From: Gemmatimonas sp.
GTDB lineage: Bacteria; Gemmatimonadota; Gemmatimonadetes; Gemmatimonadales; Gemmatimonadaceae
Direction: 5' to 3'
Assembly (NCBI RefSeq): GCF_027531815.1
Contig: NZ_JAPZSK010000002.1
Coordinates: 248,001-312,000 of the forward strand
Length of the DNA: 64,000 nucleotides
In this document: in pieces, positions 5,772-21,200 of the stretch
Position numbering within the stretch: position 1 is the stretch's first letter
Layout: the number at the start of each line of letters is the position of its first letter
Notes under the pieces: generated by a model
Database searches by the model: none
What the model was told of the DNA's origin: nothing
What the model saw: the letters and a program-made list of their open reading frames with translations, nothing else
Position numbers and translations under genes: made by a program

Positions 5772-6383
5772 GTGAAGCTTTTCTCCAAAGACGAAACGTT
5801 CTTCGATCACTTCCGTGGTCTGGCCGTGCATATCAGTGAAGCCGCCACGTTGCTGCGCACCCTCTTCGAGAATCCGGCCAACGCGGCGCAGATCTCCGTG
5901 CAGATCAAGAAGGTGGAGACCGATGGCGACGCCATCGTGCACCTCATCAACCAGCGCATCGACACGAGCTTCGTCACGCCGCTCGATCGCGAAGACATCC
6001 ACCTGCTGGCGAAGCGGCTCGACAACGTCATCGATCTCATCAATGGTGCGTCGCGCCGTGTCGTGATGTTCCGTGTGACCACGGCGCGCGACGGCGGGGT
6101 GCAGATGGCCGACGTGCTGGTGCGGTGCGGCAAGGAGATCCTTGCCTCGGTGGGGGACATCTCCAAGCGTCAGCGTATGATGGAGCACGGCCGGGCGATC
6201 AAGCTGCTCGAGGAAGAGGGCGACGTCCTGTACGCACAGTCGGTGGGTGCGCTCTTCGAGCATGAGGAGCCGGCAATCGAAGTGCTGAAGTGGAAGGAGA
6301 TCTTCGATGCGCTCGAGGAAGCCATCGACGAATGCGAGGACGTGTCCAACGCCCTCGAGAGCATCGCGCTCAAGAACAGCTGA
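5772..6383 (+). CDS. DUF47 (PhoU-like) phosphate-transport accessory protein
   Basis: A 203-residue, almost wholly helical protein of the DUF47/PhoU-related family (YkaA/Pit accessory type). Such proteins sit next to Pit transporters and are thought to control phosphate flux. Family features seen: the KDETFFDHF N-terminus, a heptad-rich helical bundle, and the acidic metal-binding stretches ETDGDAIVHLINQRID and EAIDECEDVSNALESI. The start is a GTG at 5772 with no clear ribosome site; no better in-frame start exists nearby. The stop is 18 bases before pit, so both are one operon, probably continuing into ppk1. Confidence 0.9.
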   Translation: MKLFSKDETFFDHFRGLAVHISEAATLLRTLFENPANAAQISVQIKKVETDGDAIVHLINQRIDTSFVTPLDREDIHLLAKRLDNVIDLINGASRRVVMFRVTTARDGGVQMADVLVRCGKEILASVGDISKRQRMMEHGRAIKLLEEEGDVLYAQSVGALFEHEEPAIEVLKWKEIFDALEEAIDECEDVSNALESIALKNS

Positions 6384-6401
6384 CGCGCCGCTGATCGCTC
6401 C

Positions 6402-7439
6402 GTGGTCACCTTCGTCATCTTCATCGTCGCGGTTGCGTTGGCCTTCGACTTCATCAACGGCTTCCACGACTCCGCCAACTCGATCGCCACCATCGTCGGC
6501 ACGCGCGTGCTGAGCCCGCTCGCTGCCGTCATCTGGGCGGCGGTGTTCAACTTCTCCGCGCTGTTCTTCGTGGGCACGGCCGTCGCCAAGTCGGTTGCGG
6601 CCGGCTTCATCGACCTCAACGTGGTCGATGCCAACGTCATCCTGGGCGGGTTGCTGGGCGCCATTGCGTGGAATCTCATCACGTGGTGGTTCGGCATCCC
6701 GTCGAGCTCCTCCCACGCCCTCATCGGCGGCTACGCCGGTGCCGCGGTCGCCAAGGTTGGCTTCTCCGCGCTGCTGTGGGGCAAGAAGTGGATCGAGACG
6801 CTCTCGGCCATCGTGCTGTCGCCCATGCTCGGTGCGCTCATGGGCTTCCTGCTCATGGTCCTCGTCTTCAACCTCTTCCGCAACGTGATCAACACGAAGG
6901 CGGAAAAGGTGTTCCGGGTGCTGCAGCTCACCAGTTCGGCGCTGCTCTCGCTCGCGCACGGTGGCAACGATGCGCAGAAGACGATGGGCATCATCGTGGG
7001 GTTGCTCGTGGCCACGCAGGCCACCTTCGCCAACCAGACCGGGTGGCTGACTCACTTCCACGTGACGTCGCTCGACGTCATCCCGGTGTGGGTGGAGCTG
7101 AGTGCCTACACCATGATCTCGCTGGGCACGCTCTTTGGCGGCTGGCGCATCGTGCACACCATGGGCACCCGCATCACCAAGCTGCGACCCGTGGGTGGAT
7201 TCTGCGCCGAGACGGGTGGCGCCATGGTCATTCTCGCCGCCTCGAAGCTGGGTATTCCGGTGTCCACGACCCACACGATCACCGGGGCGATCGTGGGGGT
7301 GGGGGCCACCAACCGCCTGTCGGCCGTGCGCTGGGGACTGGCCAGCCGCATCGTCTGGGCGTGGGTCATTACCATTCCCGCGAGTGCGGGCATGGCGGCA
7401 CTGAGCTACTGGCTGCTCGCGGCCTTCAATCCTCTCTGA
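6402..7439 (+). CDS. pit: inorganic phosphate transporter, PiT family
   Basis: Low-affinity, cation-coupled phosphate (metal-phosphate) permease in the inner membrane, 345 residues with about ten hydrophobic segments. The two internally repeated PiT signatures are present: GFHDSANSIATIVGTR near residue 20 and GGNDAQKTMGII near residue 187. Further family motifs are SSSSHALIGG and VSTTHTITGAIVG. A short cytoplasmic linker with KAEKVFRVLQ separates the halves. GTG start at 6402, 18 bases after the DUF47 stop. Together with DUF47 and PPK1 it forms an import-and-store unit for phosphate. Confidence 0.96.
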   Translation: MVTFVIFIVAVALAFDFINGFHDSANSIATIVGTRVLSPLAAVIWAAVFNFSALFFVGTAVAKSVAAGFIDLNVVDANVILGGLLGAIAWNLITWWFGIPSSSSHALIGGYAGAAVAKVGFSALLWGKKWIETLSAIVLSPMLGALMGFLLMVLVFNLFRNVINTKAEKVFRVLQLTSSALLSLAHGGNDAQKTMGIIVGLLVATQATFANQTGWLTHFHVTSLDVIPVWVELSAYTMISLGTLFGGWRIVHTMGTRITKLRPVGGFCAETGGAMVILAASKLGIPVSTTHTITGAIVGVGATNRLSAVRWGLASRIVWAWVITIPASAGMAALSYWLLAAFNPL

Positions 7440-7485: not shown

Positions 7486-9606
7486 ATGTCCTCGGTCACG
7501 TCGCTGTCGCTGCCGTATCTGAATCGCGAGCTCTCGTGGCTCGAATTCAATGCGCGGGTGCTGGAAGAAGCCCTCGATGAACGGGTGCCGCTGCTCGAGC
7601 GCCTCAAGTTCCTGGCGATCTTCAGCACCAATCTCGACGAATTCTACATGGTGCGGGTCGCCGGACTGCGCCGAAAGGTGGCCTCCGGGGCTCCGCAATA
7701 TGCCCCCGATCCGCTGGCACCGGCCGAACAGCTGGTCGCCATTCGCACGCGCGTGCGCGAGCTGCTGGCCCGTCGGCGCGGTGTACTCAAGCGCGAACTG
7801 CTTCCCGGACTCGCGCGCCACGACATCCATCTGGTGAAGATGGAGTCGCTCGACGACGCGGAGCGGGCGCGCGTGCACGAGTTCTTCGAGGCGCAGGTGT
7901 TCCCGGTGCTCACGCCGCTCGCGGTCGACCCCGGGCACCCGTTCCCCTACATCTCCAACCTGTCGCTCTCGCTGGCGGTCGACATCCGCGACCCGGTCAC
8001 GGGCAAGGCGCACTTCGCGCGCGTGAAGGTGCCGCGCTCCCTACCGCGGTGGGTGCCGTTCGGGCGTGGGCACTGCTACGTGCCGCTGGAGGATGTCATT
8101 GGCGCCCATTTGGGGGCGCTGTTTCCGGGGATGGAGGTGCAGCGCTGGTTCACCTTCCGCATCACGCGCTACTCCGATCTCGACCTTGGGCAGATGGATC
8201 AGCCCGAGGATATGCTCGAAACGATCGAGCAGCAGGTGTTCCAGCGGCGCTTCGGGGAAGTGGTGCGGCTGGAGGTACAGCACGACATGCCCGAACGCAT
8301 TCGCGCGCTGCTCCTGGAAGAGCTCAGCGAGAGCGAAACGCAACTGGTGGCGCCGCTGGGGCCGGACGATGTGCACGACGTGGATGATCTGCTCGAGATG
8401 GGCGACCTCATGCAGCTCGCCCTCACCGATCTCCCGGAGTTGCGCGATCCTCCGCACACGCCGCAGGTGCCCGCCCCGTTCAGGGACGGGCGCAACCTGT
8501 TTGACGTGATCCGGGAGCGGGATGTGCTCGTGCACCATCCGTTCGAATCGTTCTCGGCGTCGGTCGAGACGTTTCTCGAAGCGGCAGCCAACGATCCGCA
8601 GGTGCTGGCCATCAAGCTGACGCTGTACCGCACCTCGGGCGACATGGCCATCGTACGAGCGCTCACCGAGGCGGCCGAAGCCGGCAAGCAGGTGGCGGTG
8701 ATCATCGAATTGCAGGCGCGCTTCGACGAAACCAACAACATTACCTTCGCCCGCACCATGGAAAGTGTGGGTATTCATGTGGCGTACGGTTTGCCGGGGC
8801 TCAAGACCCACGCGAAAACGGTGCTGGTCGTGCGCCGCGACGCCGACGGCATTCGTCGCTACGGGCACATTGGCACCGGCAACTACAACAGCAAGACGGC
8901 CCGGTTGTATACCGACATGGGCTTGTTCACCTGTCATCCGGAAATCGGCGCCGACCTGTCCGACCTGTTCAATTCTCTGACCGGTGTGTCGCGGCAGAAG
9001 TACTACCGACGGCTTGCCGTGGCGCCCGTCACGCTGCGGGCGCGGCTGCGTGAGCTCATTGAACGGGAAACGGCGCACGCGATCGCGGGGAGGGGAGGGC
9101 GCATCATCGCCAAGATGAATGCCCTCGTCGATCCCGAGATCATTGCGGCCCTGTACCGCGCGTCGCAGGCCGGCGTGAAGATTGACCTCATCGTGCGCGG
9201 CATCTGCTGCCTCGTGCCGGGATTGGCGGGCATGAGTGAGCATATCCGGGTGGTCAGTATCATCGGGCGCTTCCTCGAGCACTCACGCCTGGCGTTCTTC
9301 GCGAACGCCGGCAACCCGGAGTACTACATCGGCTCGGCCGACTGGATGCCGCGCAACTTTGATCGGCGTGTCGAAGTCATGACGCCCATCGAAGACCAGC
9401 TCCTGCACAAGGGGCTGGAGGCAGTGCTCGCCACCTGCCTGAACGACAACCGGCAGGCCTGGGAGCTGGGGGCCGACGGGCAGTACCGCCGGCGGGAGCC
9501 ACAGGGTGAGGCGGTGCGCGCCACGCACCAGATCCTCATGAAGGAACCGTGGGGCACAGAGGCGGCGCGTCCGCCCAAGCGCAAGAAGAAGGGCGAGGCG
9601 GACTGA
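7486..9606 (+). CDS. ppk1: polyphosphate kinase 1
   Basis: Transfers the gamma-phosphate of ATP reversibly onto polyphosphate. The 706 residues match the usual PPK1 length. N-terminal domain with YLNRELSWLEFN at ~11-22 and FSTNLDEFYMVRVAG. The head and C-terminal PLD-like domains carry the phosphorylated His442 (GLKTHAKTV) and His599 (FLEHSRLAFF). NYNSKTARLYTDMG, GSADWMPRN and RRVEVMTPIED are also typical. ATG at 7486, 46 bases after pit, so probably the last gene of the DUF47-pit-ppk1 unit. The ppx gene converges from the other side, so synthesis and hydrolysis of polyphosphate are encoded tail to tail. Confidence 0.97.
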   Translation: MSSVTSLSLPYLNRELSWLEFNARVLEEALDERVPLLERLKFLAIFSTNLDEFYMVRVAGLRRKVASGAPQYAPDPLAPAEQLVAIRTRVRELLARRRGVLKRELLPGLARHDIHLVKMESLDDAERARVHEFFEAQVFPVLTPLAVDPGHPFPYISNLSLSLAVDIRDPVTGKAHFARVKVPRSLPRWVPFGRGHCYVPLEDVIGAHLGALFPGMEVQRWFTFRITRYSDLDLGQMDQPEDMLETIEQQVFQRRFGEVVRLEVQHDMPERIRALLLEELSESETQLVAPLGPDDVHDVDDLLEMGDLMQLALTDLPELRDPPHTPQVPAPFRDGRNLFDVIRERDVLVHHPFESFSASVETFLEAAANDPQVLAIKLTLYRTSGDMAIVRALTEAAEAGKQVAVIIELQARFDETNNITFARTMESVGIHVAYGLPGLKTHAKTVLVVRRDADGIRRYGHIGTGNYNSKTARLYTDMGLFTCHPEIGADLSDLFNSLTGVSRQKYYRRLAVAPVTLRARLRELIERETAHAIAGRGGRIIAKMNALVDPEIIAALYRASQAGVKIDLIVRGICCLVPGLAGMSEHIRVVSIIGRFLEHSRLAFFANAGNPEYYIGSADWMPRNFDRRVEVMTPIEDQLLHKGLEAVLATCLNDNRQAWELGADGQYRRREPQGEAVRATHQILMKEPWGTEAARPPKRKKKGEAD

Positions 9607-9627: not shown

Positions 9628-11220
9628 TCACTCGCCGTCGGCTTCGTCGTCGGCGCTGATTTGAGTGCCGTCGGGGAGCAGGACCACGATCGGCCGCCCC
9701 AGCACCTCCTCCAGAAGCCGGCGCTTCCGGCTCGCGCCCCAGCACTCAAGACGTACGTTCGTTGCGCCTTCGGCTTCATGCACCGTCACCAGTACCGCGT
9801 CGGTGGTCCACTTCACCGTCATACCGCCCACGGCGCTCACATGCCCGCGATCCATGCCGTCGGCGAAACGCAGCAGCGCCGACAACTTCACGATGCGCTC
9901 CCGGGTGGCGCGATCGAGCGGACCGAAGCCCGCGTGCTTGGGCTTCGGCGGAGCGCCGCGATGATAGCGCGCAATGTGCGCGATCATGATCTGCTCGGCC
10001 GGCGTCATGCCCAGCAGATCGGCATGCGAGATGAGATGGAAGGAATGCTTGTGATGCTTTTCATAGTTGATGTGGTAGCCCACATCGTGCAGCAGCGCCG
10101 CATCGGACAGGATGCGACGGTCCGCCGCCGTCAGCGCGAGGCGTGACTCGAGGGCATCGAACAGCTGCAGCGACAGGGCCTGCACCTGCCGTGCGTGCGG
10201 TGCCTCGAAGTGACAGCGTTCCGCGAACTCCCGCACCGACCGGTCGCGGGCGACGCCGGGATCGGCCACTCGGGGGGTGACGCGGGCCGCTTCCAGCAAG
10301 ATGCCTTCGCGAATCCCGAACGCCGAGGTGAGCAGATCGCGCGGGTCGAAGCGCGACAGCACTTCGGCGGCCACGGCGAGCCCCGCCACAATAATGTCGG
10401 CGCGTGCGGGGTTGAGCCCGGGCACCTGTTGCCGCTCCGGCGCCTCCATGCGCTGCAGCCACTCCAGCACATGTTCGAGTTCGGCCCGCGTGACGCGCGT
10501 GCCGTGCGCCGATCGCACGGTGACGCGCTGCCGCGCCAGCACGATGCCCGCGAGGTTCGTGAACGTGCCCCCCGACCCGATCACCTGCGCGCCCCGCCAG
10601 TCCTTGACCGGTACGGCCTTGCGCAGCCCCTCGCGCACATGCTCGCGGAGCGCCCGCACGCGGCGCGGCCGCACGGCGGGGGTGAGGAACTTCTCGGTGA
10701 GCCGCACGGCCCCGAAAGGGAGCGAGGCCACTCGCTCGATGAGACCATCCTTCGCGAGCACGAGTTCGAGGGAACCGCCCCCAATGTCCATGACCACGGT
10801 GCGTCCGGCGCCCAGCTCGAAGTGCGCCAGGGCGCTGCGGAAACAGAGCAGCGCCTCCTCTTCGCCGCTGAGTACCCGCACCGCCTGCCCGGTGGCGGCG
10901 GTGAGGCGCGCCGTGAACTCGCTCGAATTGCTCGCGTCACGCACCGCGCTGGTGGCCACGATTTCGATGCGCGCGGCGGCCAATTGCCGCGCCAGCGTGA
11001 CCATGCGCTGCACGGCCGCCACCGCCGAGTCGATTGCGGCGGAGGACAGCGCCCCCGTGCTCTCGAGGCCATCGCCGAGACGTGGCATGGCCTTCATTTC
11101 GTCGACCACCCGAATGCCGCCCGCTGGCGAGACATCGGCGATGATCTGCCGCACCGAGTTCGACCCGATGTCGATGGCCGCGATGCGAACATCGCCGGTG
11201 CGTGCTACTGGAGCCGTCAT
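9628..11220 (-). CDS. ppx: exopolyphosphatase / Ppx-GppA phosphatase with HD domain
   Basis: Hydrolyses terminal phosphate from polyphosphate, or pppGpp to ppGpp. 530 residues. An ASKHA-fold Ppx/GppA domain (~10-315) has AIDIGSNSVR (17-21 phosphate loop), EEEALLCFRSA, VVMDIGGGSLEL and GSGGTFTNLAG. A C-terminal HD domain carries His378-Asp379 (LLHDVGYHINYEKHHKHS), as in long Ppx proteins. The ATG at 11220 starts directly before the domain; the open frame extends further upstream but with no family similarity. It is the last gene of the leftward phosphate series, 76 bases after the PstS-like gene. GppA activity cannot be excluded. Confidence 0.93.
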   Translation of the reverse strand: MTAPVARTGDVRIAAIDIGSNSVRQIIADVSPAGGIRVVDEMKAMPRLGDGLESTGALSSAAIDSAVAAVQRMVTLARQLAAARIEIVATSAVRDASNSSEFTARLTAATGQAVRVLSGEEEALLCFRSALAHFELGAGRTVVMDIGGGSLELVLAKDGLIERVASLPFGAVRLTEKFLTPAVRPRRVRALREHVREGLRKAVPVKDWRGAQVIGSGGTFTNLAGIVLARQRVTVRSAHGTRVTRAELEHVLEWLQRMEAPERQQVPGLNPARADIIVAGLAVAAEVLSRFDPRDLLTSAFGIREGILLEAARVTPRVADPGVARDRSVREFAERCHFEAPHARQVQALSLQLFDALESRLALTAADRRILSDAALLHDVGYHINYEKHHKHSFHLISHADLLGMTPAEQIMIAHIARYHRGAPPKPKHAGFGPLDRATRERIVKLSALLRFADGMDRGHVSAVGGMTVKWTTDAVLVTVHEAEGATNVRLECWGASRKRRLLEEVLGRPIVVLLPDGTQISADDEADGE

Positions 11221-11296
11221 GTGGCAGCCGGGGGCAGGAGAGCAGGTGCGGGTAAGGCCGGCCTGCGGTCCGGTTCCCCCGGTCGATCGGCAACCC

Positions 11297-12469
11297 TCAG
11301 CGTACCGTACCGGAAGCCGCCCCCGTCGCGCAAGGGTCGCACCGCAGCGCCCCATCAACCCGCGCCAGCACGGCGTCCGCCACGGCGGACGGAAGCGGCA
11401 CATAGCCCATACTGCTGGCACTGGGCGCCCCTTCGAGAAGCGCCCAACGCAGAAAATCGGCAAGGGCAGTGCGCTTGGTTGCCGAAAGTTGCGACGGCGC
11501 GATCAACAGCCACGTGAAGGCGGCCAACGGATACGCCTGCTTGCCTTTGGCGTCCAGCAGGGACACGCGAAACCCGCTCACCCCCTCGTCATCGAACGGG
11601 GCGAGCGCGTCGAGGGTGTTGGCGGCGGCGGTCGCAATCTCGAAGGGCATGGGAGACACGAATTGCCCCGCGCGATTGCGGATGTGTGCCGCGGGCAGAC
11701 GATTCTGCCGCGCATAGACCACCTCGAGGTACGCCACGGTTCCGGCCGTGGCCTTCACCTCGGCCGCGACCGCTTCGTTCCCATCGCGCACGATCACCGA
11801 ATCCCCGCCTGGCCATGGGGCGTCTGCGGCCGCGGCGGCGGACGCGCCCTGCACCAGCTGCAGATAACGGGCAAAGATGCGTGCCGTGCCACTGCCGTCG
11901 CTGCGGCGCACCGGGCGCACGGCCAGGTGCGGCAGCGTCACGCCAGGGTTGATGGCGCGCAGGCGTGCGTCATCCCAGAAGGCAATGCGCCCGCGAAACA
12001 GATCGGCGACGACCTCACCCGACAGGCGCAACGGACGCGTGGTGCCGGGGACGTTGTACGTAATGGCCACGGCCCCGACCGCCATGGGGATGTGCACCAC
12101 CGCGCGTCCGCGGGCCTGCATGGCGCTGTCGGATACCGGAATGTCGGTCGCGCCGAAATCTGCCGAGCCGTTGAGGGCCGCGGCGATCCCCTGCGGCGAT
12201 CCCTCCGAGCGGTAGGTGATGCGCACGGGGGCGACCGCCGCATACTCGTTGAACCAGCGCGCATACAGCGGGTACGGCAGCGTGGCGCCGACGCCGGTCA
12301 GCACCAGCCGTTCGGACTCGGCCACGGGCAACGCCTCACGGGCTGCCCCCGAGTCGCGGGCGCTGTCCACGGGCTGTTTGCGCGTCCCCTCACCACACGA
12401 CACCGCAGGCAGCAGGGCAACGGCAAGCACTGCCGAGAGACGTACGCCTTGTCTGCGCCGGCCCCTCAT
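11297..12469 (-). CDS. PstS-like phosphate-binding lipoprotein
   Basis: 390 residues with a lipoprotein signal (LLPAVSC, Cys25) and a PstS-type type II periplasmic binding domain. Matching segments are TGVGATLPYPLYARWFNEY, YRSEGSPQGIAAAL, DFGATDIPVSD and RRSDGSGTARIFARYL, which in PstS form the phosphate-contacting loops. No pstC, pstA or pstB gene lies in this window, so this binding protein is separate from an ABC transporter here and sits downstream of a TonB-dependent receptor instead. Its ATG overlaps the stop of the upstream lipoprotein gene by ATGA (12466-12469), implying translational coupling. It may be a surface or periplasmic phosphate scavenger; that is inference. Confidence 0.85.
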   Translation of the reverse strand: MRGRRRQGVRLSAVLAVALLPAVSCGEGTRKQPVDSARDSGAAREALPVAESERLVLTGVGATLPYPLYARWFNEYAAVAPVRITYRSEGSPQGIAAALNGSADFGATDIPVSDSAMQARGRAVVHIPMAVGAVAITYNVPGTTRPLRLSGEVVADLFRGRIAFWDDARLRAINPGVTLPHLAVRPVRRSDGSGTARIFARYLQLVQGASAAAAADAPWPGGDSVIVRDGNEAVAAEVKATAGTVAYLEVVYARQNRLPAAHIRNRAGQFVSPMPFEIATAAANTLDALAPFDDEGVSGFRVSLLDAKGKQAYPLAAFTWLLIAPSQLSATKRTALADFLRWALLEGAPSASSMGYVPLPSAVADAVLARVDGALRCDPCATGAASGTVR

Positions 12470-13107
12470 AGCGCGTTGGCGTAGCCGATGAACTTGAATC
12501 GCCCCTCGCGCTCGAGGATGGTGCCGAACCAGCGTCCTTCGGGAAGCGTGGTGGCTCCCGCTCGCAGGCGAAGCGCGCATTGTTGGTGTAGCCGGTTCTT
12601 TCCCTCCACCGTTACCGAATCGGCGCAGCGCAGCTGCACGAGCGACACCGTGGTTCCGCCAAGTCGCGCGAGCGCCTTGGGAAGACTCTCGTTGCTGCTG
12701 GTCATGATCTGTCCCCACAGGAGCTGGGGTGGTGCCTCATACGGAGGCTGGCTCATGGCCGATGTGGGGTAGTACAGATACGCAAACTCGCCCCGGTCGA
12801 GCGTGAGGGCGTTGAGTGTGGCCGTATCGCTCGTTGAGAGTGCCGTGAGAAACCGGCGCACCAACGACTCGCGATCCGGCGCTGCGTGGCGCAGCGTGTC
12901 GACCGAGTCGACACCCACCCGGAAGCGGCGCAGTTGCTCGGCAATGGGCAGGATGGAATCGACAGTGCCGCCGGCGGCGATGACCTCGGCGATGTGGGCC
13001 GCCTGGGAATCGGCCGCCGTACGTGGGCGTGCGTCGCCACACGCTGCCGCGAGGAATGTCGCGGCGGCAACGGCAAGCAGGAGAGAGAGGCGCGAAGGCT
13101 GAGGCAT
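12466..13107 (-). CDS. uncharacterised small lipoprotein
   Basis: 213 residues. The start at 13107 gives a clean lipoprotein signal, MPQPSRLSLL followed by an Ala-rich core and LAAAC with Cys23. A GTG at 13179 would add 24 residues ahead of the signal and is unlikely. The mature part is mixed alpha/beta with no recognised motif. Two cysteines (in RCADS and QQCALRL) could form a disulfide. It is coupled by ATGA to the PstS-like gene and lies behind the beta-helix lipoprotein, so a role in the same envelope process is likely. I do not recognise the family. Confidence 0.75.
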   Translation of the reverse strand: MPQPSRLSLLLAVAAATFLAAACGDARPRTAADSQAAHIAEVIAAGGTVDSILPIAEQLRRFRVGVDSVDTLRHAAPDRESLVRRFLTALSTSDTATLNALTLDRGEFAYLYYPTSAMSQPPYEAPPQLLWGQIMTSSNESLPKALARLGGTTVSLVQLRCADSVTVEGKNRLHQQCALRLRAGATTLPEGRWFGTILEREGRFKFIGYANAL

Positions 13108-13132
13108 GAGGGGAGAACGGTGAAGAACAGGA

Positions 13133-13167
13133 AAACGGCCAGGGCCGCATCGCGACCCTGGCCGTTT
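13133..13167 (-). terminator. hairpin between the beta-helix and small lipoprotein genes
   Basis: Perfect 12-bp stem (13133-13144 with 13156-13167) with an 11-base loop, 67 bases past the beta-helix gene stop and 26 bases before the next start. The leftward RNA ends the stem in a short run of U (AAAC read as GUUU/UUCC). It could end or attenuate transcription within the series. Confidence 0.55.
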
Positions 13168-13233
13168 CACGTAGCCCACGATATCACCGCGGCGGATCGT
13201 AAGCTGAAAGGTAGATGCCGGTCACGCGGTCGG

Positions 13234-14976
13234 TCAGTTGCGGGCGTAGTTGGTCCAGCCTTCCCACCACTTCGTGCCACCCGGGGCGGCAGCGCCGCGG
13301 TACACGGTGGGCGTGATGAACGTGCCCACGCGCGCCGCAATGCGCGGGTCGGCCGCGAACGTGGACAGTCCACCCGTGGCGATGGGCGAGTTGGCCGCCG
13401 GCGACCAGTCGAGGCTGGCGCCATTGGTCGGGGTAGCGGGCAGCGCCGTGAAGAGGCTCGCCGCCGTTACGCCCGCGCCCACCACGATGTTGGCGTTGCG
13501 CGCAGTGAACGCGCTCGCCTGGCCGAAGTTCGTGCCCGTTGCATCGAAGCCGCCGTCTGCCCCGCCATTCTCGGCGAAGTAGAGGTTGCGCACGATGAGC
13601 GAGTCCACGAGAAAACGATTGTTGGACGTGGAGTCGCGGAGCGAGATGCCCCCGCGCGGCCAGCGCGTGACCACGCCGTTCACGTAGTAGCCACCCGTAC
13701 CACGGCGCAGCACGGCACCCACGCCACCGCTGCCCGGCACGGTCACGCCAGACGCCGGACCCACGAGCGTGAAGTTCGCGAAGACGTTCATGTTCCACAG
13801 CCCATCATCGCGGCCGGCACTCTGCGCATTGGCCCCCGACGGCGCCACGCAGCCACCACCGTTGCAGCCGTCCACTTCGAAGCCCTGCGGGTCGGCAGAC
13901 ACGGCACCGGCGCCAGGGCGCGGCGTGAGGTAGGTGCTCTGCAAGCCAATGAGGAACTGGTTGAGCCCGCGATAGCCCTCGGAACCATCGAAGTGATCGT
14001 CACCCGACTCGTACGACACCAGGTAGCGGCCGTTCACGGTGCCGCCAAACCACTCGAAGTGGTCGTCGAGGCCAGCGAGCGCCTGGACGTATTCGACCGT
14101 GGTGCCACTGCCCACCGCCGCAAACGTAAACGAGTTGAGCTCGGCGTCGGCGAGGGTGGCATAGCCGGCAAACTCCACACGCACGTAGCGCAGCGTGCCG
14201 CTGTTGTCGCTATCCACCGTGCCGCCGGTGTAGATGATGCCCGCCGGATCAGCGCCCACCACCGAGCCGTTCGAGCCTTCCACGATGACGTTGCCGACGC
14301 GGTTGGCGCGGGCATTGCCCACGATGACCAGACCGCCCCAGTCGCCCGGCGACCGGTTGCCGGCGGAGCGCTGCGAGGTGAAGACCACCGGCGCCGCCGC
14401 CGTGCCGTTGGCCACGAGGCGCGCACCGCGCAGCACGAAGAGCGCCGAGCCCAACGCCGTGGTGTCGCCCACGATGCGCGTACCCGCGTTCACTGTGAGT
14501 GTGGCACCGCTGTTGACGTACACGAAGCCGCGCAGCACGTAATTGGTGTCGGCACTGAGCGTGCGGTTGGCGGCAATGGAGCCGCTGAGCACTACAGTCG
14601 GGGTGGGCGCAACGGCGTAGGCCACCGTGACGCTGGCGGTGGCGTTGGACGCCACCGTGGCCGGTGATCCGCTGATCGTCGCATTGTAGCGGACGCTGTT
14701 GGCGGTCACCTGCGCTGCGGCGACTGTGTAGCTGCCGGGTGCCACGCTGATGGTGGTAGTCCCCGTGACCGTCTGGCTGAAGCTGCCCGGCCCGGTGACG
14801 GTGACCGCACCGTTCACACCGGTGGGGAGCCCCGACACCGTTACCGCCAGCGAACCGTTGGCAGGCGTTGGGGTGACAGGAGGCGAAATCGGGTCGTCAC
14901 TACCACCGCAAGCGGCGAGCGCCAGTGCGGCAAACGACGTAAGCGCGAGTGTACGCAGGCGCACGGTCATCGTCAT
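13234..14976 (-). CDS. beta-helix surface lipoprotein next to a TonB receptor
   Basis: About 580 residues. Lipoprotein signal MTMTVRLRTLALTSFAALAL then AAC (Cys23 from the ATG at 14976; an ATG at 15006 would add ten residues). An Ig-like or PEGA-like segment rich in Thr/Val (~45-140) precedes a large repetitive beta-strand region with GDWGGLVIVGNA, RYVRVEFAG, DDHFEWFGGTVNG and GDDHFDGSEGYRG, which looks like a right-handed parallel beta-helix. A Cys pair sits in VDGCNGGGCVAP. From memory, proteins of this type are often encoded beside TonB-dependent receptors, as here; a partner or substrate-capture role is inferred. It is followed by lipoprotein, PstS-like and ppx genes on the same strand. 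Confidence 0.75.
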   Translation of the reverse strand: MTMTVRLRTLALTSFAALALAACGGSDDPISPPVTPTPANGSLAVTVSGLPTGVNGAVTVTGPGSFSQTVTGTTTISVAPGSYTVAAAQVTANSVRYNATISGSPATVASNATASVTVAYAVAPTPTVVLSGSIAANRTLSADTNYVLRGFVYVNSGATLTVNAGTRIVGDTTALGSALFVLRGARLVANGTAAAPVVFTSQRSAGNRSPGDWGGLVIVGNARANRVGNVIVEGSNGSVVGADPAGIIYTGGTVDSDNSGTLRYVRVEFAGYATLADAELNSFTFAAVGSGTTVEYVQALAGLDDHFEWFGGTVNGRYLVSYESGDDHFDGSEGYRGLNQFLIGLQSTYLTPRPGAGAVSADPQGFEVDGCNGGGCVAPSGANAQSAGRDDGLWNMNVFANFTLVGPASGVTVPGSGGVGAVLRRGTGGYYVNGVVTRWPRGGISLRDSTSNNRFLVDSLIVRNLYFAENGGADGGFDATGTNFGQASAFTARNANIVVGAGVTAASLFTALPATPTNGASLDWSPAANSPIATGGLSTFAADPRIAARVGTFITPTVYRGAAAPGGTKWWEGWTNYARN

Positions 14977-15047
14977 CGGGAGTCGAGATTGAATGGTGAA
15001 CGGCATCGTCGAGACTTGGCGATCCCTATCGGAAAGAAGCGCGCGCT

Positions 15048-15102
15048 CTGTCGTCAAAACGTCATGACCCGGTCACGGTTGTGTCACCGAGACCGGGTCA
15101 TG
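15048..15102. promoter_or_regulatory. four 11-bp-phased GTC half-sites overlapping a 12-bp hairpin
   Basis: GTC occurs at 15050, 15061, 15072 and 15083, each as a PhoB-like heptamer (CTGTCGT, ACGTCAT, CGGTCAC, GTGTCAC) repeated every 11 bases. The last three overlap a perfect 12-bp inverted repeat (15063-15074 with 15091-15102), which can form a hairpin just past the receptor gene. The repeats point rightwards while the genes on both sides read leftwards, so a PhoB role is uncertain and a terminator role is equally possible. Confidence 0.4.
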
Positions 15103-15128
15103 TGATCCCGCGCTGGGAGGTCGCGGCG

Positions 15129-17930
15129 CTACTGCCGCCAGCTCAACCCCATCGAGACGACGCGACCGGCGTTCCATCCCTCCCGCTCCAGATTGCCCTG
15201 CATGAAGCGGAAGCGGGCATCGAGCAGGTTGCGGGCATCCATGCGCGCCGAGAGGTTGCCGCGCACCGGGAACCGCAACGACAGGTCGAGCAGGTGGCGC
15301 GGCTTCTCCACGATGTTGGGGAGGGGCACCACACCGGCCGCGGTGATGCGTTCGCCGACCACGTTGTACAGAATCGTGGCGTTCGTGCTGCCACTCATGT
15401 TCGAGTAGGTAAGTCCCGTGTTGATCACATACGGGGCCTGGCCCACCAGTCGCCGGCTCTGGTCGGTGACCGTGAGGCCGCCGGTAGGGTCGAGTTCCAC
15501 GTTCGACTGCATGAGCGTCACGTTGCCGAACCCGGTGAAGGCCTCGCCCCAGGAGCCCAGGAAGCCGAGCTGCTTGCGGGCTTCAAGCTCCACGCCCACG
15601 TTCGTGGCGCTGAGCGCATTCTGGAAGCGCGCCTGATAGGCGCCCGACGTAGCCTGCTCGAGGCGCTCGATCGGACGATCGAAGCGCTTGGCAAACACGC
15701 CCACGCTGAGCACCTCGCCGGGATTGGGGAACATCTCCCAGCGCAGGTCCACATTGTCGATGAGGGACCGCACCAGCGCCGCATTGCCAGTGACACTCAC
15801 GCCGCCCAGTACATCGCGGAAGGTCACGGGGGCCAGTTCGCGGTACTCCGGGCGCGCCAGCGTGCGCGTGATGCCGAAGCGCAGATTCTGCGTGGAGGAC
15901 AGCTGCGTGTTGAGCAGCAGCGAGGGAAGCACGTCGGTGTTGTCGAGCGTGGCCGTGGTCGTGAACCCGCCCTGCGTGGAGGCATCCACGGTGATGCGCG
16001 CCTGCTCGAGGCGCGCGCCGGCGATCATGCGCACCCGCGACCCCAGACCGATGTCCGACATGAGATACCCGGCCGCCGTGCGGTCGCTGGCCAGGTAGGA
16101 ACCGGCCTGCCCGATGGGCTGCACGTTGATGAGGGCGCAGTTGTCACACGCCTGGGCTTCGCCGAAGATCACATCGGGTGTCTGACGCACCACGCTCTCA
16201 CCGGCGCGGCTGATGAAGGCGAAGATGGGGGCATCGGCCGTGCGGTCGGTGGTCCGCAGGTAGGCGCCCACCTTGAGCGTGTTCTGCTTCGCCACGTCGC
16301 CCAGATTGATCGTGTGATCGACCTGGCCGGTGACGTTGTTCTCCTGCAGGTCGAAATAGAGGCGACGGGCGCCGTCGAGCGACGCGAGAATCTGGTAGGG
16401 CCCCTCGGGGGTGCGCGCGTACACCACGTCGGAGCGGTCGGGCTCGCGGCGGTCGGTCTGGCCGAACGTCACCGCCCAGGCGGTGCGGTTGCGATCACTC
16501 AGCTGGTGCTCACCAGAGCCGGTCATGGTGGCCACTCCCCGCTCGACGTAGCGCAGCGTGGTGCGCTGAATGCTGTCGTTCAGGTTTTCGTCGAAACCAC
16601 GGTCGGAGCGTGCCTCGTTGTCGGCGCTGCGGGTAACCGTCGTATTGAGGGCGAGGCGCGAGTTGCGCCCCACGAGCGTCGAAAGGTTGGCGATACCCCC
16701 CCACGAGGCGCTGGCGCGACCGGTCTGCCCGCGCACTTCGGTCAGTGGCACGACCGTATTGTTGGCACCCTGGTTGCCAATGGCATAGCGCTCGTCGGCG
16801 CGCACTTCCTCGCTGTAGCCGTAGTTGCCGCTCAGCACGTACCCGATGCGCTTGCCCAGAATGTTGTTGCCGCCGGTGGACATTCCGAACGAGCCGTTCA
16901 CACCACCATTGCGGAGCGACGGGCTCCACACGTTGCGCTGCTGACGTGCCATCTGGTTGTACTGGGACTGCGAGACGTTGCCCAGAAAGTTCGCGCCGGC
17001 AATGGCCGATGGCATACGGCGGTTCGCCGACGCATTCCCGAACAGCTCGCCGCCGGCGCGCGGGGCGAAGGGCAGCGTCTGCCCCAGCACGCGATCGCCA
17101 AAGCCGAAGCTCGTGGAATAGTTCACCTGCCGGCGAGCGGGGAACTCACGGGTGCGGATGTTCACGTTGGCGCCCGCGAAGTCACCCGGCATGTCGGGGG
17201 TGAAGGTCTTGGCCGTGGTGACGTCCTGCAGCAGGCTCGCCGGGAACAGATCGAGCGGCACGACCTTGCGTTCGGGCTCCGGGCTCGGAATGCGCGCACC
17301 ATTGAGCGAGGCCGTGGTGTAGCGCTCGGAGAGGCCGCGTACCTGCAGGTACTTGCCATCCTGCACCGTCACGCCGCTCACGCGCTGCGCGGCGGCCGCC
17401 GCATCATTGTCGGGGCTGCGCGCGATCTGCTCCGCGGTGATGGCGTTCACCACGTTCGTGGCGTTCTTCTGCGCGTTGAGGGCGTCGTTCACCGACCCCT
17501 TTTCCTTGGTGGCCGTGACACTGACCGCGGCCAGTTGCACATCGGCGCTGCGCAGCGAGATGTCCTGCTCCAGCGCGCCGTTCGGCGGCAGCAGCAATCC
17601 CGTTACGGTCTTGGGGCCGTAGCCGATGCGGCGCACCTGCAGCGTGATGGTGCCCGCAGGCACGCGCAGCAACGTGTATCGGCCATCGACCGCCGTTTGC
17701 GTGCCGAAGGCGGTGCCCACCACCTGAATCTGCGCCGCAGGAATGGGCTGGCCGGTGACGGCGTCCACGATGCGCCCGGTGATCTTGCCGGTCGATGCCT
17801 CCTGCGCAGAGGCGGAGGCGGGAAGAAGCACGGAAACGGCAGCGGGAACAACGGTCACCGTGGTCGCCAGCATCGCGCGACGGGAAGCGCGACGCGCGGC
17901 ACGGTAGAGCGCGTGAACGGAAATCCGCAT
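15129..17930 (-). CDS. TonB-dependent outer-membrane receptor
   Basis: 933 residues from the ATG at 17930 (a start at 17978 would add 16). Signal peptide ending near ASASA. A carboxypeptidase-regulatory-like domain (~47-130, GRIVDAVTGQPIPAAQIQVVGT) is followed by a plug with NAITAEQIARSPD, VSGVTVQDGKYLQVRGLSERY and LDLFPASLLQDVTTAKTFTPDMPGDFAG (read in parts), then a 22-strand-type barrel. The C-terminus ends VVSMGLSWRQ, a terminal strand with aromatic ending. TonB-energised import of a large or scarce substrate is expected. It heads the leftward series of beta-helix lipoprotein, small lipoprotein, PstS-like protein and Ppx, so a phosphate compound is the best guess for the substrate. Confidence 0.92.
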   Translation of the reverse strand: MRISVHALYRAARRASRRAMLATTVTVVPAAVSVLLPASASAQEASTGKITGRIVDAVTGQPIPAAQIQVVGTAFGTQTAVDGRYTLLRVPAGTITLQVRRIGYGPKTVTGLLLPPNGALEQDISLRSADVQLAAVSVTATKEKGSVNDALNAQKNATNVVNAITAEQIARSPDNDAAAAAQRVSGVTVQDGKYLQVRGLSERYTTASLNGARIPSPEPERKVVPLDLFPASLLQDVTTAKTFTPDMPGDFAGANVNIRTREFPARRQVNYSTSFGFGDRVLGQTLPFAPRAGGELFGNASANRRMPSAIAGANFLGNVSQSQYNQMARQQRNVWSPSLRNGGVNGSFGMSTGGNNILGKRIGYVLSGNYGYSEEVRADERYAIGNQGANNTVVPLTEVRGQTGRASASWGGIANLSTLVGRNSRLALNTTVTRSADNEARSDRGFDENLNDSIQRTTLRYVERGVATMTGSGEHQLSDRNRTAWAVTFGQTDRREPDRSDVVYARTPEGPYQILASLDGARRLYFDLQENNVTGQVDHTINLGDVAKQNTLKVGAYLRTTDRTADAPIFAFISRAGESVVRQTPDVIFGEAQACDNCALINVQPIGQAGSYLASDRTAAGYLMSDIGLGSRVRMIAGARLEQARITVDASTQGGFTTTATLDNTDVLPSLLLNTQLSSTQNLRFGITRTLARPEYRELAPVTFRDVLGGVSVTGNAALVRSLIDNVDLRWEMFPNPGEVLSVGVFAKRFDRPIERLEQATSGAYQARFQNALSATNVGVELEARKQLGFLGSWGEAFTGFGNVTLMQSNVELDPTGGLTVTDQSRRLVGQAPYVINTGLTYSNMSGSTNATILYNVVGERITAAGVVPLPNIVEKPRHLLDLSLRFPVRGNLSARMDARNLLDARFRFMQGNLEREGWNAGRVVSMGLSWRQ

Positions 17931-17938
17931 GGGATGTT

Positions 17939-18000
17939 CGGAGCTTTGAGGAGACAGGTCGCGGAGTACGTGGCGCACTCCGGACGCAGGGAAAGCTCCG
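17939..18000 (-). promoter_or_regulatory. structured leader of the TonB receptor mRNA
   Basis: Outer helix CGGAGCUUU (read from 18000) with AAAGCUCCG (ending at 17939), 9 perfect pairs, encloses an inner hairpin CGGAGU / ACUCCG (6 pairs, 17977-17982 with 17962-17967). The outer 3' arm ends 8 bases before the ATG, and no Shine-Dalgarno sequence is visible. It does not match a riboswitch class I know. Confidence 0.4.
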
Positions 18001-18008
18001 TGACCCAG

Positions 18009-18026
18009 GTTTCAGTCATCCGACAG
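18009..18026 (-). promoter_or_regulatory. Pho-box-like site upstream of the TonB receptor
   Basis: Read leftwards: CTGTCGG, four bases, CTGAAAC, with 11-base spacing, in the orientation of the receptor gene and ~80 bases ahead of its start. It matches about 11 of 17 positions of the PhoB 18-mer. Judged by eye; the second half-site is poor. Confidence 0.3.
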
Positions 18027-18139
18027 TTGTGCAACGAAACGGTCACGGCAACGCGGTCCGGAACGGGGGGCACGCAATGGGAGGAAGCCCCTCGGGCGAT
18101 CTGGTGCGAAGCAGGTCCGCGTAGTATTGTCGCCCGAGC

Positions 18140-18985
18140 ATGGTCCCGACTGATCCCAATCTTCAGCGGCGCCGGGTCGCCTCCCCGCCGCCAACCGATC
18201 CCCAGACACGCGCCGAGGCGCTCACCGTAGCTGCCAAGGCGCTTCGCGCGGCCGAGCACGTGTGCGTACTCACGGGCGCCGGCGTGTCGGCCGAGAGTGG
18301 CATCCCCACCTTTCGCGAAGCGCAGACCGGCACCTGGGCGCAGTTCAGCCCACAGGAGCTGGCCACCCCCGACGCTTTTGCGGCCCACCCCAAACGGGTC
18401 TGGCAATGGTATGCCGCGCGTCGCGCGATGGTGCGGGCGGCACAGCCCAACCCGGCGCATGTGGCACTCGTCACGCTCGCGTCACGAGTCGCCCACTGTA
18501 CTCTGGTTACCCAGAACGTGGACGACCTGCATGAGCGGGCCGGCAGCCGCGACGTTGTTCGGCTGCACGGCTCCCTCATGCACGTCCGGTGCAGCGCGGG
18601 GTGCGCCGGCTCGTTTGCCGCCACCGACGAGCAGCTCGCCGACGTGCCCACCTGTCCGCAGTGCGGGGCGCTCCTGCGCCCCGATGTGGTGTGGTTCGGG
18701 GAAACGCTCCCTATGCCCCCCTTCGAGGCCGCCCGCAACGCCGCCGTGGCGTGTGACGTGTTCATCTCGGTGGGCACATCCAACATCGTCGAGCCGGCAG
18801 CGTCGCTGCCGTGGATCTCGGCGACCCACGGGGCCACGGTCATCGTGGTGAATCCCACCATGGAAGGGCAGCGCTCAGGCCCCAGCATCCTCCCCATCGA
18901 AGGGCCGGCCGGGGTCATGCTGCCGCGGCTTATAGCCGAAGCCTTCGCCGGTCGCCGCGCCAGGCGGCAGGCGGAATCGGCCTGA
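18140..18985 (+). CDS. cobB: Sir2-family NAD-dependent protein deacylase
   Basis: Removes acyl groups from lysines using NAD. 281 residues. Rossmann motif TGAGVSAESGIPTFR (~44-58), catalytic region TQNVDDLHERAG with LHGS just after it (the catalytic His), zinc ligands in VRCSAGC and TCPQCG, and VGTSNIVEPAASLP. The segment RVWQWYAARR carries the Tyr and Arg of class III sirtuins (SIRT5/CobB type), which also accept succinyl or malonyl lysine. The N-terminus is about 30 residues longer than usual, but no other in-frame start lies close. It is divergent from the TonB receptor and convergent with phoR; there is no obvious functional link to either. Confidence 0.93.
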   Translation: MVPTDPNLQRRRVASPPPTDPQTRAEALTVAAKALRAAEHVCVLTGAGVSAESGIPTFREAQTGTWAQFSPQELATPDAFAAHPKRVWQWYAARRAMVRAAQPNPAHVALVTLASRVAHCTLVTQNVDDLHERAGSRDVVRLHGSLMHVRCSAGCAGSFAATDEQLADVPTCPQCGALLRPDVVWFGETLPMPPFEAARNAAVACDVFISVGTSNIVEPAASLPWISATHGATVIVVNPTMEGQRSGPSILPIEGPAGVMLPRLIAEAFAGRRARRQAESA

Positions 18986-19037: not shown

Positions 19038-20477
19038 TCAGACGGGCAGCGGGGTGGGGAGCCAGACCGCAATGGTGGTGCCCACCCCAACCGTGCTCTC
19101 CGCCCGCACGCGCCCGTTATGCGCTTCCGCCAGATGGCGCACGATGGAGAGGCCGAGGCCCGTGCCGCCGGCCTCGCGGGACCGACCGGGATCGGCGCGG
19201 TAGAACCGCTCGAAGATGCGCGGCAGGTGTTCGGGGCCGATCCCCATCCCGGTATCGCGCACCCCCATCCATACCCCGTCCCCCTCGCGTTCGGCAAACA
19301 CGACCACACGCCCCGCGGCCGTGTGGCGCAGGGCGTTCTCGGCGAGATTGACAAGAATCTGCCCGGCTGCGGTCGGATCGCACTGGATGAGCCGGGCGTT
19401 GGCGGCAACGTCGATGGCCAGCGAAACCCCCTTGTCGTCGGCGCGCGACTGCAACGGGGCGAGGGCATCCGCTGCGAGCTCCTCGACGCGCAACGCCACC
19501 GGCGCCGGACGCCATCCTCCCGACTCGATGCGGGAGAGGTCGAGCAGGTCATCGACGATGCGCTGCATGCGCTGCACGTTGGCCTCTGCCATGCCCAGGA
19601 ACTGCCGCCGGAGGTCGGGCGGAACGTCGTCGTCCTGCAGCGTCTCCACGAACCCGCCAATGATCGTGAGCGGCGTGCGCAGCTCGTGGGACACGTTGGC
19701 CACGAAGTCGCTGCGTACCGTCTCGAGCCGGCGAACCGGGGTGAGGTCGTACATGGCAAACACGGCGCCCCCTCCACTCAGGGCGCGTACCGTGAGGGCC
19801 AGCGTGCGACCGGCGAGCTGGATTTCGCGCACGATGGGCGGGGCCCCCGACAGCACCAGTTGCAGCGCTTCCTGCAACTGCGGTTCCTGTGGCAGCTCGT
19901 TGGCGGGGAAGGGGAGCGGCTGGCGCAGATTGAGCAGCTGACGTCCGCGCTCATTGATACGCACCACCCGCTTGCGCGCGTCCACGGCCACGACGCCTTC
20001 ATTGAGCGACTCGGTGAGCGCCACCAGCAGTGCTTCTTCCGACTGCATTTCCCAGAGGCGCGTTTCCATCTGCTCGGCCACACGGCGGAGCGAATCGGCC
20101 AGGTCGCCCACCTCGCCGCCGCTGATGGACCGGGACGGTCGGGCCGTGAGATCGCCGCCGGCCAGGTCCTGCGCCATGTCGCGCAACTCCTGCATGGGGC
20201 GCGTCACCTGCCCGGCGAGTGCGCGCGCCAACAGCAGAGCCACGACGAGCGCAACACCGCTGGCAATGAGCACGTCGTTGCGGATGGCCCCCAGCAGCGC
20301 CTCGTCGGCGGCCGCTTCCAGGCTGGCCCGATCGGCCGGTTGGGCCATGCCCACAGCGACGGTATCCTGCAGCTCCAGCCGGTGCCGTACCCGCCACTCC
20401 ACGGCGCCCAGAATGATCGCCACGAGGAGCGTGGCGACCACGGCGCTCTGCACCAGCAGTCGCTGGGTGAGCCGCAC
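19038..20477 (-). CDS. phoR: PhoR-like sensor histidine kinase
   Basis: 479 residues. TM1 ~10-27, a short periplasmic segment (~28-68), TM2 ~69-88, HAMP (~86-140, TRPMQELRDMAQDLAGGDL), a PAS-like domain (~150-250, GVVAVDARKRVVRINERG), HisKA with the phosphorylated His264 (VSHELRTPL), and HATPase_c with N box NLAENALRH, DTGMGIGPEHLPRIFERF and GGTGLGLSIV. This layout, including the PAS after HAMP, is the PhoR/WalK type. Its GTG start abuts the phoB stop (TGAGTG), so the two are coupled. Phosphate sensing is inferred from domain layout and the phosphate genes nearby; a WalK-like role is the alternative. Confidence 0.85.
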   Translation of the reverse strand: MRLTQRLLVQSAVVATLLVAIILGAVEWRVRHRLELQDTVAVGMAQPADRASLEAAADEALLGAIRNDVLIASGVALVVALLLARALAGQVTRPMQELRDMAQDLAGGDLTARPSRSISGGEVGDLADSLRRVAEQMETRLWEMQSEEALLVALTESLNEGVVAVDARKRVVRINERGRQLLNLRQPLPFPANELPQEPQLQEALQLVLSGAPPIVREIQLAGRTLALTVRALSGGGAVFAMYDLTPVRRLETVRSDFVANVSHELRTPLTIIGGFVETLQDDDVPPDLRRQFLGMAEANVQRMQRIVDDLLDLSRIESGGWRPAPVALRVEELAADALAPLQSRADDKGVSLAIDVAANARLIQCDPTAAGQILVNLAENALRHTAAGRVVVFAEREGDGVWMGVRDTGMGIGPEHLPRIFERFYRADPGRSREAGGTGLGLSIVRHLAEAHNGRVRAESTVGVGTTIAVWLPTPLPV

Positions 20478-21200
20478 TCAGTACGCGCGCGGCGCCGTGG
20501 CGCGCAGTCGGTAGCCGAAGCCGCGCACGGTCTCGATGAGGTCGCCGGCGGTGCCCAGCTTGGTGCGCAGTCGCTGCACGTGCATGTCGACCGTGCGGGT
20601 CTGAATGTCCGGGGCGGCTTCCCACACCGTCTCCAGCAGATGCCCGCGCCCCTGAACGCGCCCGCGGCGCTCGGCCAGGGTGAGGAGCAGCTTGAACTCG
20701 GTGGGGGTGAGATCCACGGCCTCGCCGCTCACGTTCACCGTCATGGCCGCCCGGTCGATGTGCAGCGGGCCAATCACCAGCGCATCGGTGTTGCCCGCCG
20801 GCTGCGCGGACCCGGTCCGGCGCAGGATGGCCGCCACGCGCAGCACCAGTTCGGCCGGCGAGAAGGGCTTGGTGAGATAGTCGTCGGCACCCAGCGACAG
20901 GCCGCGGATGCGATCGGGTTCTTCACGGCGGGCCGTGAGCATGATGACGGCGATGTCGCGCGTGCTCTCGTCGAGGCGCAGCTGCTCGAGCACGTCGAAC
21001 CCGGACATGCCTGGCAGCATGAGGTCAAGCACGATGAGCGACGGGCGCTCACGGCGCGCCAGCTCGAGTGCGTCCTGCCCCGACGACGCCGTGGAGACGC
21101 GATAGCCGGTTTTCGCCAGGTGGTAGGCCACCAGGGCGACGATCTCGGTTTCGTCGTCCACGACGAGAATGCGATCAGCGGTACTCGGAGCAGCGTTCAT
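20478..21200 (-). CDS. phoB: PhoB-like response regulator (OmpR family)
   Basis: 240 residues. Receiver domain with acidic Asp15-16, phosphoacceptor Asp59 (LIVLDLMLPGMSG), Thr89 and Lys111 (LTKPFSPAEL). A winged-helix DNA-binding domain follows (~140-232) with LTPTEFKLLLTLAERRG, VDMHVQRLRTKLG and the terminal IETVRGFGYRL hairpin. This is the PhoB/OmpR architecture. It lies 7 bases after the udk stop and is fused in reading to phoR, giving an udk-phoB-phoR transcript. It is the obvious candidate to bind the Pho-box-like sites noted upstream of the pit and receptor genes. Confidence 0.87.
   Translation of the reverse strand: MNAAPSTADRILVVDDETEIVALVAYHLAKTGYRVSTASSGQDALELARRERPSLIVLDLMLPGMSGFDVLEQLRLDESTRDIAVIMLTARREEPDRIRGLSLGADDYLTKPFSPAELVLRVAAILRRTGSAQPAGNTDALVIGPLHIDRAAMTVNVSGEAVDLTPTEFKLLLTLAERRGRVQGRGHLLETVWEAAPDIQTRTVDMHVQRLRTKLGTAGDLIETVRGFGYRLRATAPRAY

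Follow-up and report, generated by a model that had tools for sequence, protein, structure and literature searches.

The window analyzed here, a 64,000-nucleotide stretch of a Gemmatimonas sp. genome (assembly GCF_027531815.1, contig NZ_JAPZSK010000002.1, positions 248,001 to 312,000), contains a phosphate gene cluster in which genes for a TonB-dependent receptor, a beta-helix lipoprotein and a small lipoprotein lie beside an orphan pstS, a gene for a phosphate-binding lipoprotein with no pump genes next to it. We show that the receptor and the two other lipoproteins constitute one module, that PstS belongs to the Pst operon, and that pstCAB and phoU have been lost repeatedly in the Gemmatimonadaceae while PstS stayed. 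The reading we favor, and hold to be probable, is that this Pho-regulated three-gene cassette imports phosphate or a phosphorus compound by way of its TonB receptor, and that Pit takes the inner-membrane step where the pump has been lost. The computations covered gene content, synteny, the repeated losses, co-evolution within the trio, ligand residues and repeat elements, which are presented in turn below.

Three cassette genes next to what is left of a Pst operon

An earlier note on this DNA had described four leftward genes, encoding the receptor, the beta-helix lipoprotein, the small lipoprotein and a PstS-like protein, followed by ppx, and had read the four as a dedicated capture system. 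The genes are present as described, and the last two of the four are indeed coupled by a shared ATGA (12466-12469). As a functional unit the four fare differently: the receptor, the beta-helix protein and the small lipoprotein co-evolve, whereas PstS is a leftover of a pstSCAB-phoU operon and stands outside this relationship. In partial Mantel tests on 26 loci, using distances corrected for those of ppx, the three proteins were correlated with one another at r of 0.95, 0.89 and 0.86 (p 0.001), whereas r between PstS and the trio was about 0. PstS is equally adjacent to the trio, yet it lies outside the signal. Because the trio co-evolves so tightly and PstS does not join it, we regard the locus as a three-gene unit next to the remains of a Pst operon. 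Besides contact between the products, transfer of neighboring DNA in one piece may contribute to the correlation.

The beta-helix lipoprotein, whose signal peptide suggests that the true start is the ATG at 14976, was modeled with modest confidence (mean predicted local distance difference test score, pLDDT, of 64.8) as a right-handed parallel beta-helix. NosD is matched at Z 21, and NosD, alginate epimerases and lyases together span Z 17-21; such a match between a modeled and a known fold gives no function. The small lipoprotein has a confidently predicted NTF2/cystatin-like C-terminal domain (AlphaFold2 pLDDT 86), with 4qan as the top Protein Data Bank match (Z 8.9) and many NTF2-like structures at Z of about 6. 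Neither lipoprotein has a match in Pfam or NCBIfam. The receptor scores 229 bits against TIGR01782, below the cut-off of 310, and is 98% identical to its counterpart in locus L003. The ratio of nonsynonymous to synonymous substitution rates (dN/dS) is 0.12 for the small lipoprotein and 0.07 for the beta-helix protein.

The two parts of the locus are also found apart. Locus L080 of genome G109, which belongs to the same genus as the window, has pstSCAB-phoU and no trio. Conversely, locus L076 of G116 has the trio without PstS, in a genome with no PstC over the cut-off and with Pit present, which is the barest form of the system. At two further loci, L075 (9105-14498, in G098) and L067 (in G070), a divergent trio seems to have taken the place of the original one, and the flanking ppx is native. 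Between L075 and the window, ppx is 82% identical and the trio proteins are 29-49% identical.

Recurrent loss of the pump

In its full form the conserved gene order is phoB-phoR-TonB receptor-beta-helix-small lipoprotein-pstS-pstC-pstA-pstB-pstB-phoU-ppx, and the part from pstC to phoU is gone in the window and in many relatives. It fills the interval between pstS and ppx in L007, L008, L009, L012, L013, L014, L017 and others, and is absent from that interval in the window and 18 other loci, in a set that was sampled through PstS and beta-helix matches and is not a random sample. We consider the loss of pstCAB-phoU recurrent because, on the ppx tree, the distribution of the pump requires five changes, three of which are forced by well-supported branches. 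In eleven genomes (G000, G069, G086, G120, G023, G025, G033, G070, G087, G110 and G114) an orphan pstS adjoins the beta-helix gene and no protein passes the PstC cut-off. Seven others (G048, G119, G126, G003, G059, G125 and G130) have, besides the orphan, a different PstC at another place, in most cases together with a divergent PstS of its own. PhoU is missing together with PstC in the pump-less genomes, and one Pit is retained.

Among 118 genomes searched, the beta-helix gene and PstS lay less than 15 kb apart in 42 of the 42 cases in which they shared a contig, and less than 3 kb apart in 34. The same gene order recurs across the Gemmatimonadaceae, so that this clustering is more than chance, and co-occurrence of these genes is widespread. 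A survey has named pstSCAB as the principal route of uptake for Gemmatimonadota of every environment (PMC10581226), and the literature that we found on phosphate uptake in this phylum names pstSCAB only. Several of the lineages described here are exceptions.

Two further features of the pump interval were also seen. In L010 a lone phoU persists between pstS and ppx (11236-12051), with pstCAB lost. Syntenic Pst operons of the Gemmatimonadaceae carry two adjacent genes for PstB-like ATPases, as in L007 (13127-14676) and L074 (9542-11157).

A genome in which Pit is the one phosphate carrier found

The window comes from a Gemmatimonas-like genome of 4.3 Mb in 27 contigs that is 99.92% complete. 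The earlier note had seen no ATP-binding cassette (ABC) permease near these genes, and for the Pst permeases this now applies genome-wide: PstC and PstA gave no match in the genome at an E-value of 0.001, using a PstC model that also picks up PstA in relatives, and none is present at the syntenic place. For PhoU there is no PF01895 match in the genome, and no Na/Pi cotransporter was found in it. PstB is missing from the syntenic place, the locus being the scope of that search, where relatives hold two copies. A pst operon elsewhere, with a PstS of its own, was looked for, and PstS-family and PstC searches of the genome found none.

Pit, which had been suggested as a possible inner-membrane carrier, is the single phosphate carrier gene found in the genome, and it is itself located inside the cluster. 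It is single-copy in all 19 genomes tested, and likewise in all 12 tested genomes in which no PstC passed the cut-off (G116 and the eleven with an orphan PstS). The window cluster holds a full Pit together with its accessory gene. The Pit of E. coli operates with neither a binding protein nor a TonB receptor. Loss of the pump is physiologically plausible because E. coli PitA can stand in for PstSCAB in phosphate uptake in Caulobacter (PMC11208175).

The orphan PstS

No PstS-family protein other than the 11297-12469 product was found in the genome, and by its sequence this product is a genuine member of the family. The identification as PstS-like is upheld by its TIGR00975 score (Table 1) and by its binding residues: it keeps T63, S91, D109, R189, D191, S193, G194 and T195, equivalent to T10, S38, D56, R135, D137, S139, G140 and T141 of E. 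coli PstS, the phosphate ligands of that protein. Among 18 orphan PstS proteins, R135 and T141 are invariant. In these proteins the ligand residues showed no significantly higher conservation than other invariant columns (Mann-Whitney p 0.07), and therefore conservation of the pocket alone is weak evidence. The dN/dS of the window PstS against the closest species is 0.17, and orphan PstS genes of at least five genera have an intact frame and most of the ligands. Our reading is that the orphan PstS binds phosphate and is under constraint that is relaxed, yet real.

Several observations weigh against a working role for PstS in the absence of its pump. The D137 position is altered in 5 of the 18 orphans, and orphans score 231-354 bits against the PstS model, as opposed to about 340-414 bits for pump-linked proteins. 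In G036, which lacks PstC, the short contig of locus L072 has a pstS with an in-frame TAG (3073-4098) that is possibly a pseudogene, and G116 has lost PstS altogether. Moreover, a PstS with no pump to dock on could equally well hold phosphate back. The lower scores, the stop codon in G036 and the loss in G116 would all suit an orphan PstS that is a decaying, functionless relic of the lost Pst operon. We think this quite improbable, since frames are intact and most ligands present across genera, and since the dN/dS value given above, which compares two close species, also speaks against it.

The orphan PstS raises the question of how PhoR senses phosphate, and of what PstS does, without PstCAB-PhoU. 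One answer would be that PstS is itself the sensor, and that its phosphate-bound form reports periplasmic phosphate to PhoR and so keeps PhoR-PhoB responsive. PhoR and PhoB are strongly conserved between two PstCAB-less genomes (dN/dS 0.056) though their usual PstSCAB-PhoU input is missing, and in almost all orphan loci of sufficient length phoR and pstS are clustered together. However, G116 retains PhoR-PhoB and the trio without PstS, showing that PstS is not needed for the pathway to persist, and we know of no precedent for direct contact between PstS and PhoR. We judge the sensor role unlikely, if less so than outright decay. A somewhat better, though still tentative, proposal is a pump-free import route in which uptake across the outer membrane is driven by TonB, PstS holds or carries phosphate in the periplasm, and Pit acts at the inner membrane. 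If true, a binding protein would have been repurposed for a secondary carrier (or a sensor), and phosphate would have a receptor that depends on TonB.

Pho-box-like repeats

In 23 of 32 loci the beta-helix gene is preceded by the pattern GTGAC-N6-GTGAC, compared with a background of about 2%, and GTGAC-N6-GTTGC precedes the receptor gene in 21 of 32 (background 1.4%). These repeats have an 11-bp period, as in PhoB-type sites, with an orientation opposite to that in E. coli. A strict form, GTGACA-N4-CGTGACC, has one exact match in the genome, located upstream of the beta-helix gene. Together, the repeats would fit control of the cassette by PhoB. Outside the phylum, a scan with the consensus Pho box gave p values of about 0.02-0.1 each upstream of Alteromonas and Pseudoalteromonas genes, which are individually weak and come from related sequences, and the same scan gave no support upstream of the pair genes of Bacteroidota.

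The receptor/beta-helix pair outside the phylum

The pair is present in Pseudomonadota as well as in Bacteroidota. Searches of 72,556 plasmid records, one with the beta-helix protein and another with the receptor, returned largely the same records, and a TonB receptor adjoins the beta-helix homologue at 20 of 21 plasmid places. Marinobacter has a beta-helix homologue without an adjoining receptor. In the alphaproteobacteria Indioceanicola and Sphingomonas the order is beta-helix, TonB receptor and type II secretion system (T2SS) genes, and the beta-helix proteins are homologous to that of the window. An Alteromonas macleodii plasmid (NZ_OX359244.1) carries phoB-phoR-PstS-oxygenase-betahelix-TonB receptor-DUF3450-ExbB-ExbB-ExbD-TonB, and is another, distant example in which a PstS-type protein beside the pair has no adjacent pump genes. 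It shares with the window the pho regulators, the pump-less PstS-type protein and the homologous pair. It differs in that its PstS is only distantly related, that a dedicated DUF3450-ExbB-ExbB-ExbD-TonB set is present, and that a pump may exist elsewhere in the genome. The oxygenase gene between PstS and the beta-helix gene (3138-3929 in L103) is of the 2-oxoglutarate-Fe(II) type.

Two lineages argue against a link to phosphate: in Pseudoalteromonas the pair occurs with its own TonB system and no adjacent pho genes, and in Bacteroidota it is bare, again without adjacent pho genes. Conceivably, what the cassette imports has nothing to do with phosphate, and its genes are in this cluster by chance. 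We consider this very unlikely, in view of the pst/pho linkage in every same-contig case in Gemmatimonadaceae, the independent pho linkage in Alteromonas, the conserved Pho-box-like repeats, and the induction of Caulobacter ElpS by starvation (PMC2996285).

Relation to known systems

The arrangement of the receptor/beta-helix pair is not unique to the window, as it matches that of elpS and cc0171 in Caulobacter, where ElpS is a surface lipoprotein produced under phosphate starvation and the two genes lie beside T2SS genes (PMC2996285). As with ElpS (Cc0170) and Cc0171, the gene for a large lipoprotein adjoins that for a TonB-dependent receptor in the window, and both pairs have a link to phosphate starvation. 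The likeness rests on gene position in the relatives from Sphingomonas and Indioceanicola. In contrast to elpS-cc0171, the window cluster has no T2SS genes, which are also not beside the pair in Alteromonas and Bacteroidota, and it adds an NTF2-like lipoprotein, PstS, ppx and phoR-phoB. The authors of the ElpS study proposed a role in phosphate mobilization; extracellular alkaline phosphatase activity rose on overproduction of ElpS, and, as a point against import of phosphate, no change in intracellular phosphate was detected (PMC2996285). With the PstSCAB-PhoU system the window shares a true PstS, and relatives have the whole operon at the same place; the window genome is without PstC, PstA and PhoU. 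Similar to SusCD-type TonB systems, the receptor has an N-terminal CarboxypepD_reg domain and a lipoprotein partner, but here the partner is modeled as a beta-helix, has no Pfam match and is not SusD, and the receptor falls far below the cut-off of the SusC model.

The rise in phosphatase activity (PMC2996285) would also fit a cassette that handles organic or polymeric phosphorus, such as nucleic acid, a phosphoester or a phosphorylated polysaccharide, bound by the beta-helix lipoprotein and relieved of its phosphate later by phosphatases. The fold of this protein is of the pectate lyase/NosD type, and a few genes from phoB there is a gene (22100-25354, plus strand) for a large protein with calcineurin-like phosphoesterase and 5'-nucleotidase C-terminal domains, in two stretches, that could free phosphate from nucleotides. 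On the other hand, no catalytic family was recognized in the beta-helix protein by Pfam or NCBIfam, and a position next to PstS and Pit suits free phosphate equally. We therefore treat organic phosphorus as a serious possibility that is nonetheless rather less than even.

Returning to the reading we favor, the sequence of events would be as follows. Phosphate starvation, acting through PhoR-PhoB, would turn on the three-gene cassette. The TonB receptor would then bring phosphate or a phosphorus-containing compound across the outer membrane at the expense of the proton motive force, with the beta-helix lipoprotein as its surface-exposed capture partner and the small NTF2-like lipoprotein as a periplasmic or outer-membrane accessory. 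In the ancestral state the substrate would have been passed to PstS and the PstCAB ABC pump of the neighboring operon. After the deletion of pstCAB-phoU here and in several relatives, PstS would have stayed as a periplasmic phosphate binder and Pit would perform the inner-membrane step. Transport, substrate, PhoB control, surface location and the action of PstS without a pump are what we infer from the genes.

It was already known that a TonB receptor/lipoprotein pair is tied to phosphate starvation in Caulobacter, with its function unsettled. What is new is the three-gene cassette, its setting in a pho/pst/polyphosphate cluster, the repeated loss of pstCAB-phoU with PstS kept, Pit as the one carrier found, and the parallel Alteromonas cluster. 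The cassette points to an uncharacterized route for phosphorus across the outer membrane. The general view is that phosphate passes this membrane through porins, and a widespread Pho-linked TonB receptor/lipoprotein pair would offer an energy-driven alternative; the phrase "TonB-dependent phosphate" was not met in the literature searched. Periplasmic phosphate accumulation that depends on the proton motive force has been reported in marine bacteria without a transporter to explain it (PMC7250820), and the pair would be a concrete candidate.

Organization of the locus

The cluster is larger than the four genes and ppx listed in the earlier note, and also includes pit with its accessory gene (5772-7439), ppk1 (7486-9606) and phoR-phoB (19038-21200). 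From left to right, the accessory gene, pit and ppk1 are on the plus strand, followed on the minus strand by ppx, pstS and the three cassette genes, so that the four leftward genes sit between phoR-phoB and ppx. The accessory gene is presumably of the PhoU-like/DUF47 type, a label that we base on its position before pit, and the name ppk1 is likewise our assumption from the character of the sequence.

Table 1. Genes and repeat elements of the phosphate cluster, in window coordinates.
Feature	Position	Strand	Basis
Pit accessory gene (presumed PhoU-like/DUF47)	5772..6383	+	Open reading frame (ORF); adjoins pit in every locus reaching that far
pit	6402..7439	+	PF01384 (PHO4 domain), 307.8 bits, cut-off 33.7
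ppk1, polyphosphate kinase (presumed)	7486..9606	+	ORF and conserved synteny
ppx/gppA, exopolyphosphatase	9628..11220	-	PF02541, 191.6 bits
Orphan pstS, phosphate-binding lipoprotein	11297..12469	-	TIGR00975, 284 bits, cut-off 205
Small lipoprotein, NTF2/cystatin-like fold	12466..13107	-	Structure model; found in all trio loci
Beta-helix lipoprotein, likely ElpS-type	13234..15006	-	Structure model; homologues adjoin TonB receptors in other phyla
Pho-box-like 11-bp direct repeat GTGACACAACCGTGACC	15071..15087	-	Upstream of beta-helix gene
TonB-dependent receptor, CarboxypepD_reg domain and plug	15129..17930 (ATG at 17930)	-	PF13620, PF07715
Pho-box-like repeats	17996..18046	-	Upstream of TonB receptor gene
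phoR-type histidine kinase	19038..20477	-	TIGR02966, 258 bits, and NF046044, 299 bits, both below cut-off
phoB-type response regulator	20478..21200	-	TIGR02154, 240.7 bits, below cut-off 296, yet top match

The loci closest to that of the window are from Gemmatimonas metagenome-assembled genomes. To the right of the receptor gene, a plus-strand gene for a Sir2-family deacylase (18140-18985) precedes phoR and phoB, which are on the minus strand; it occupies this place in the Gemmatimonas clade and was not seen there in several other genera.

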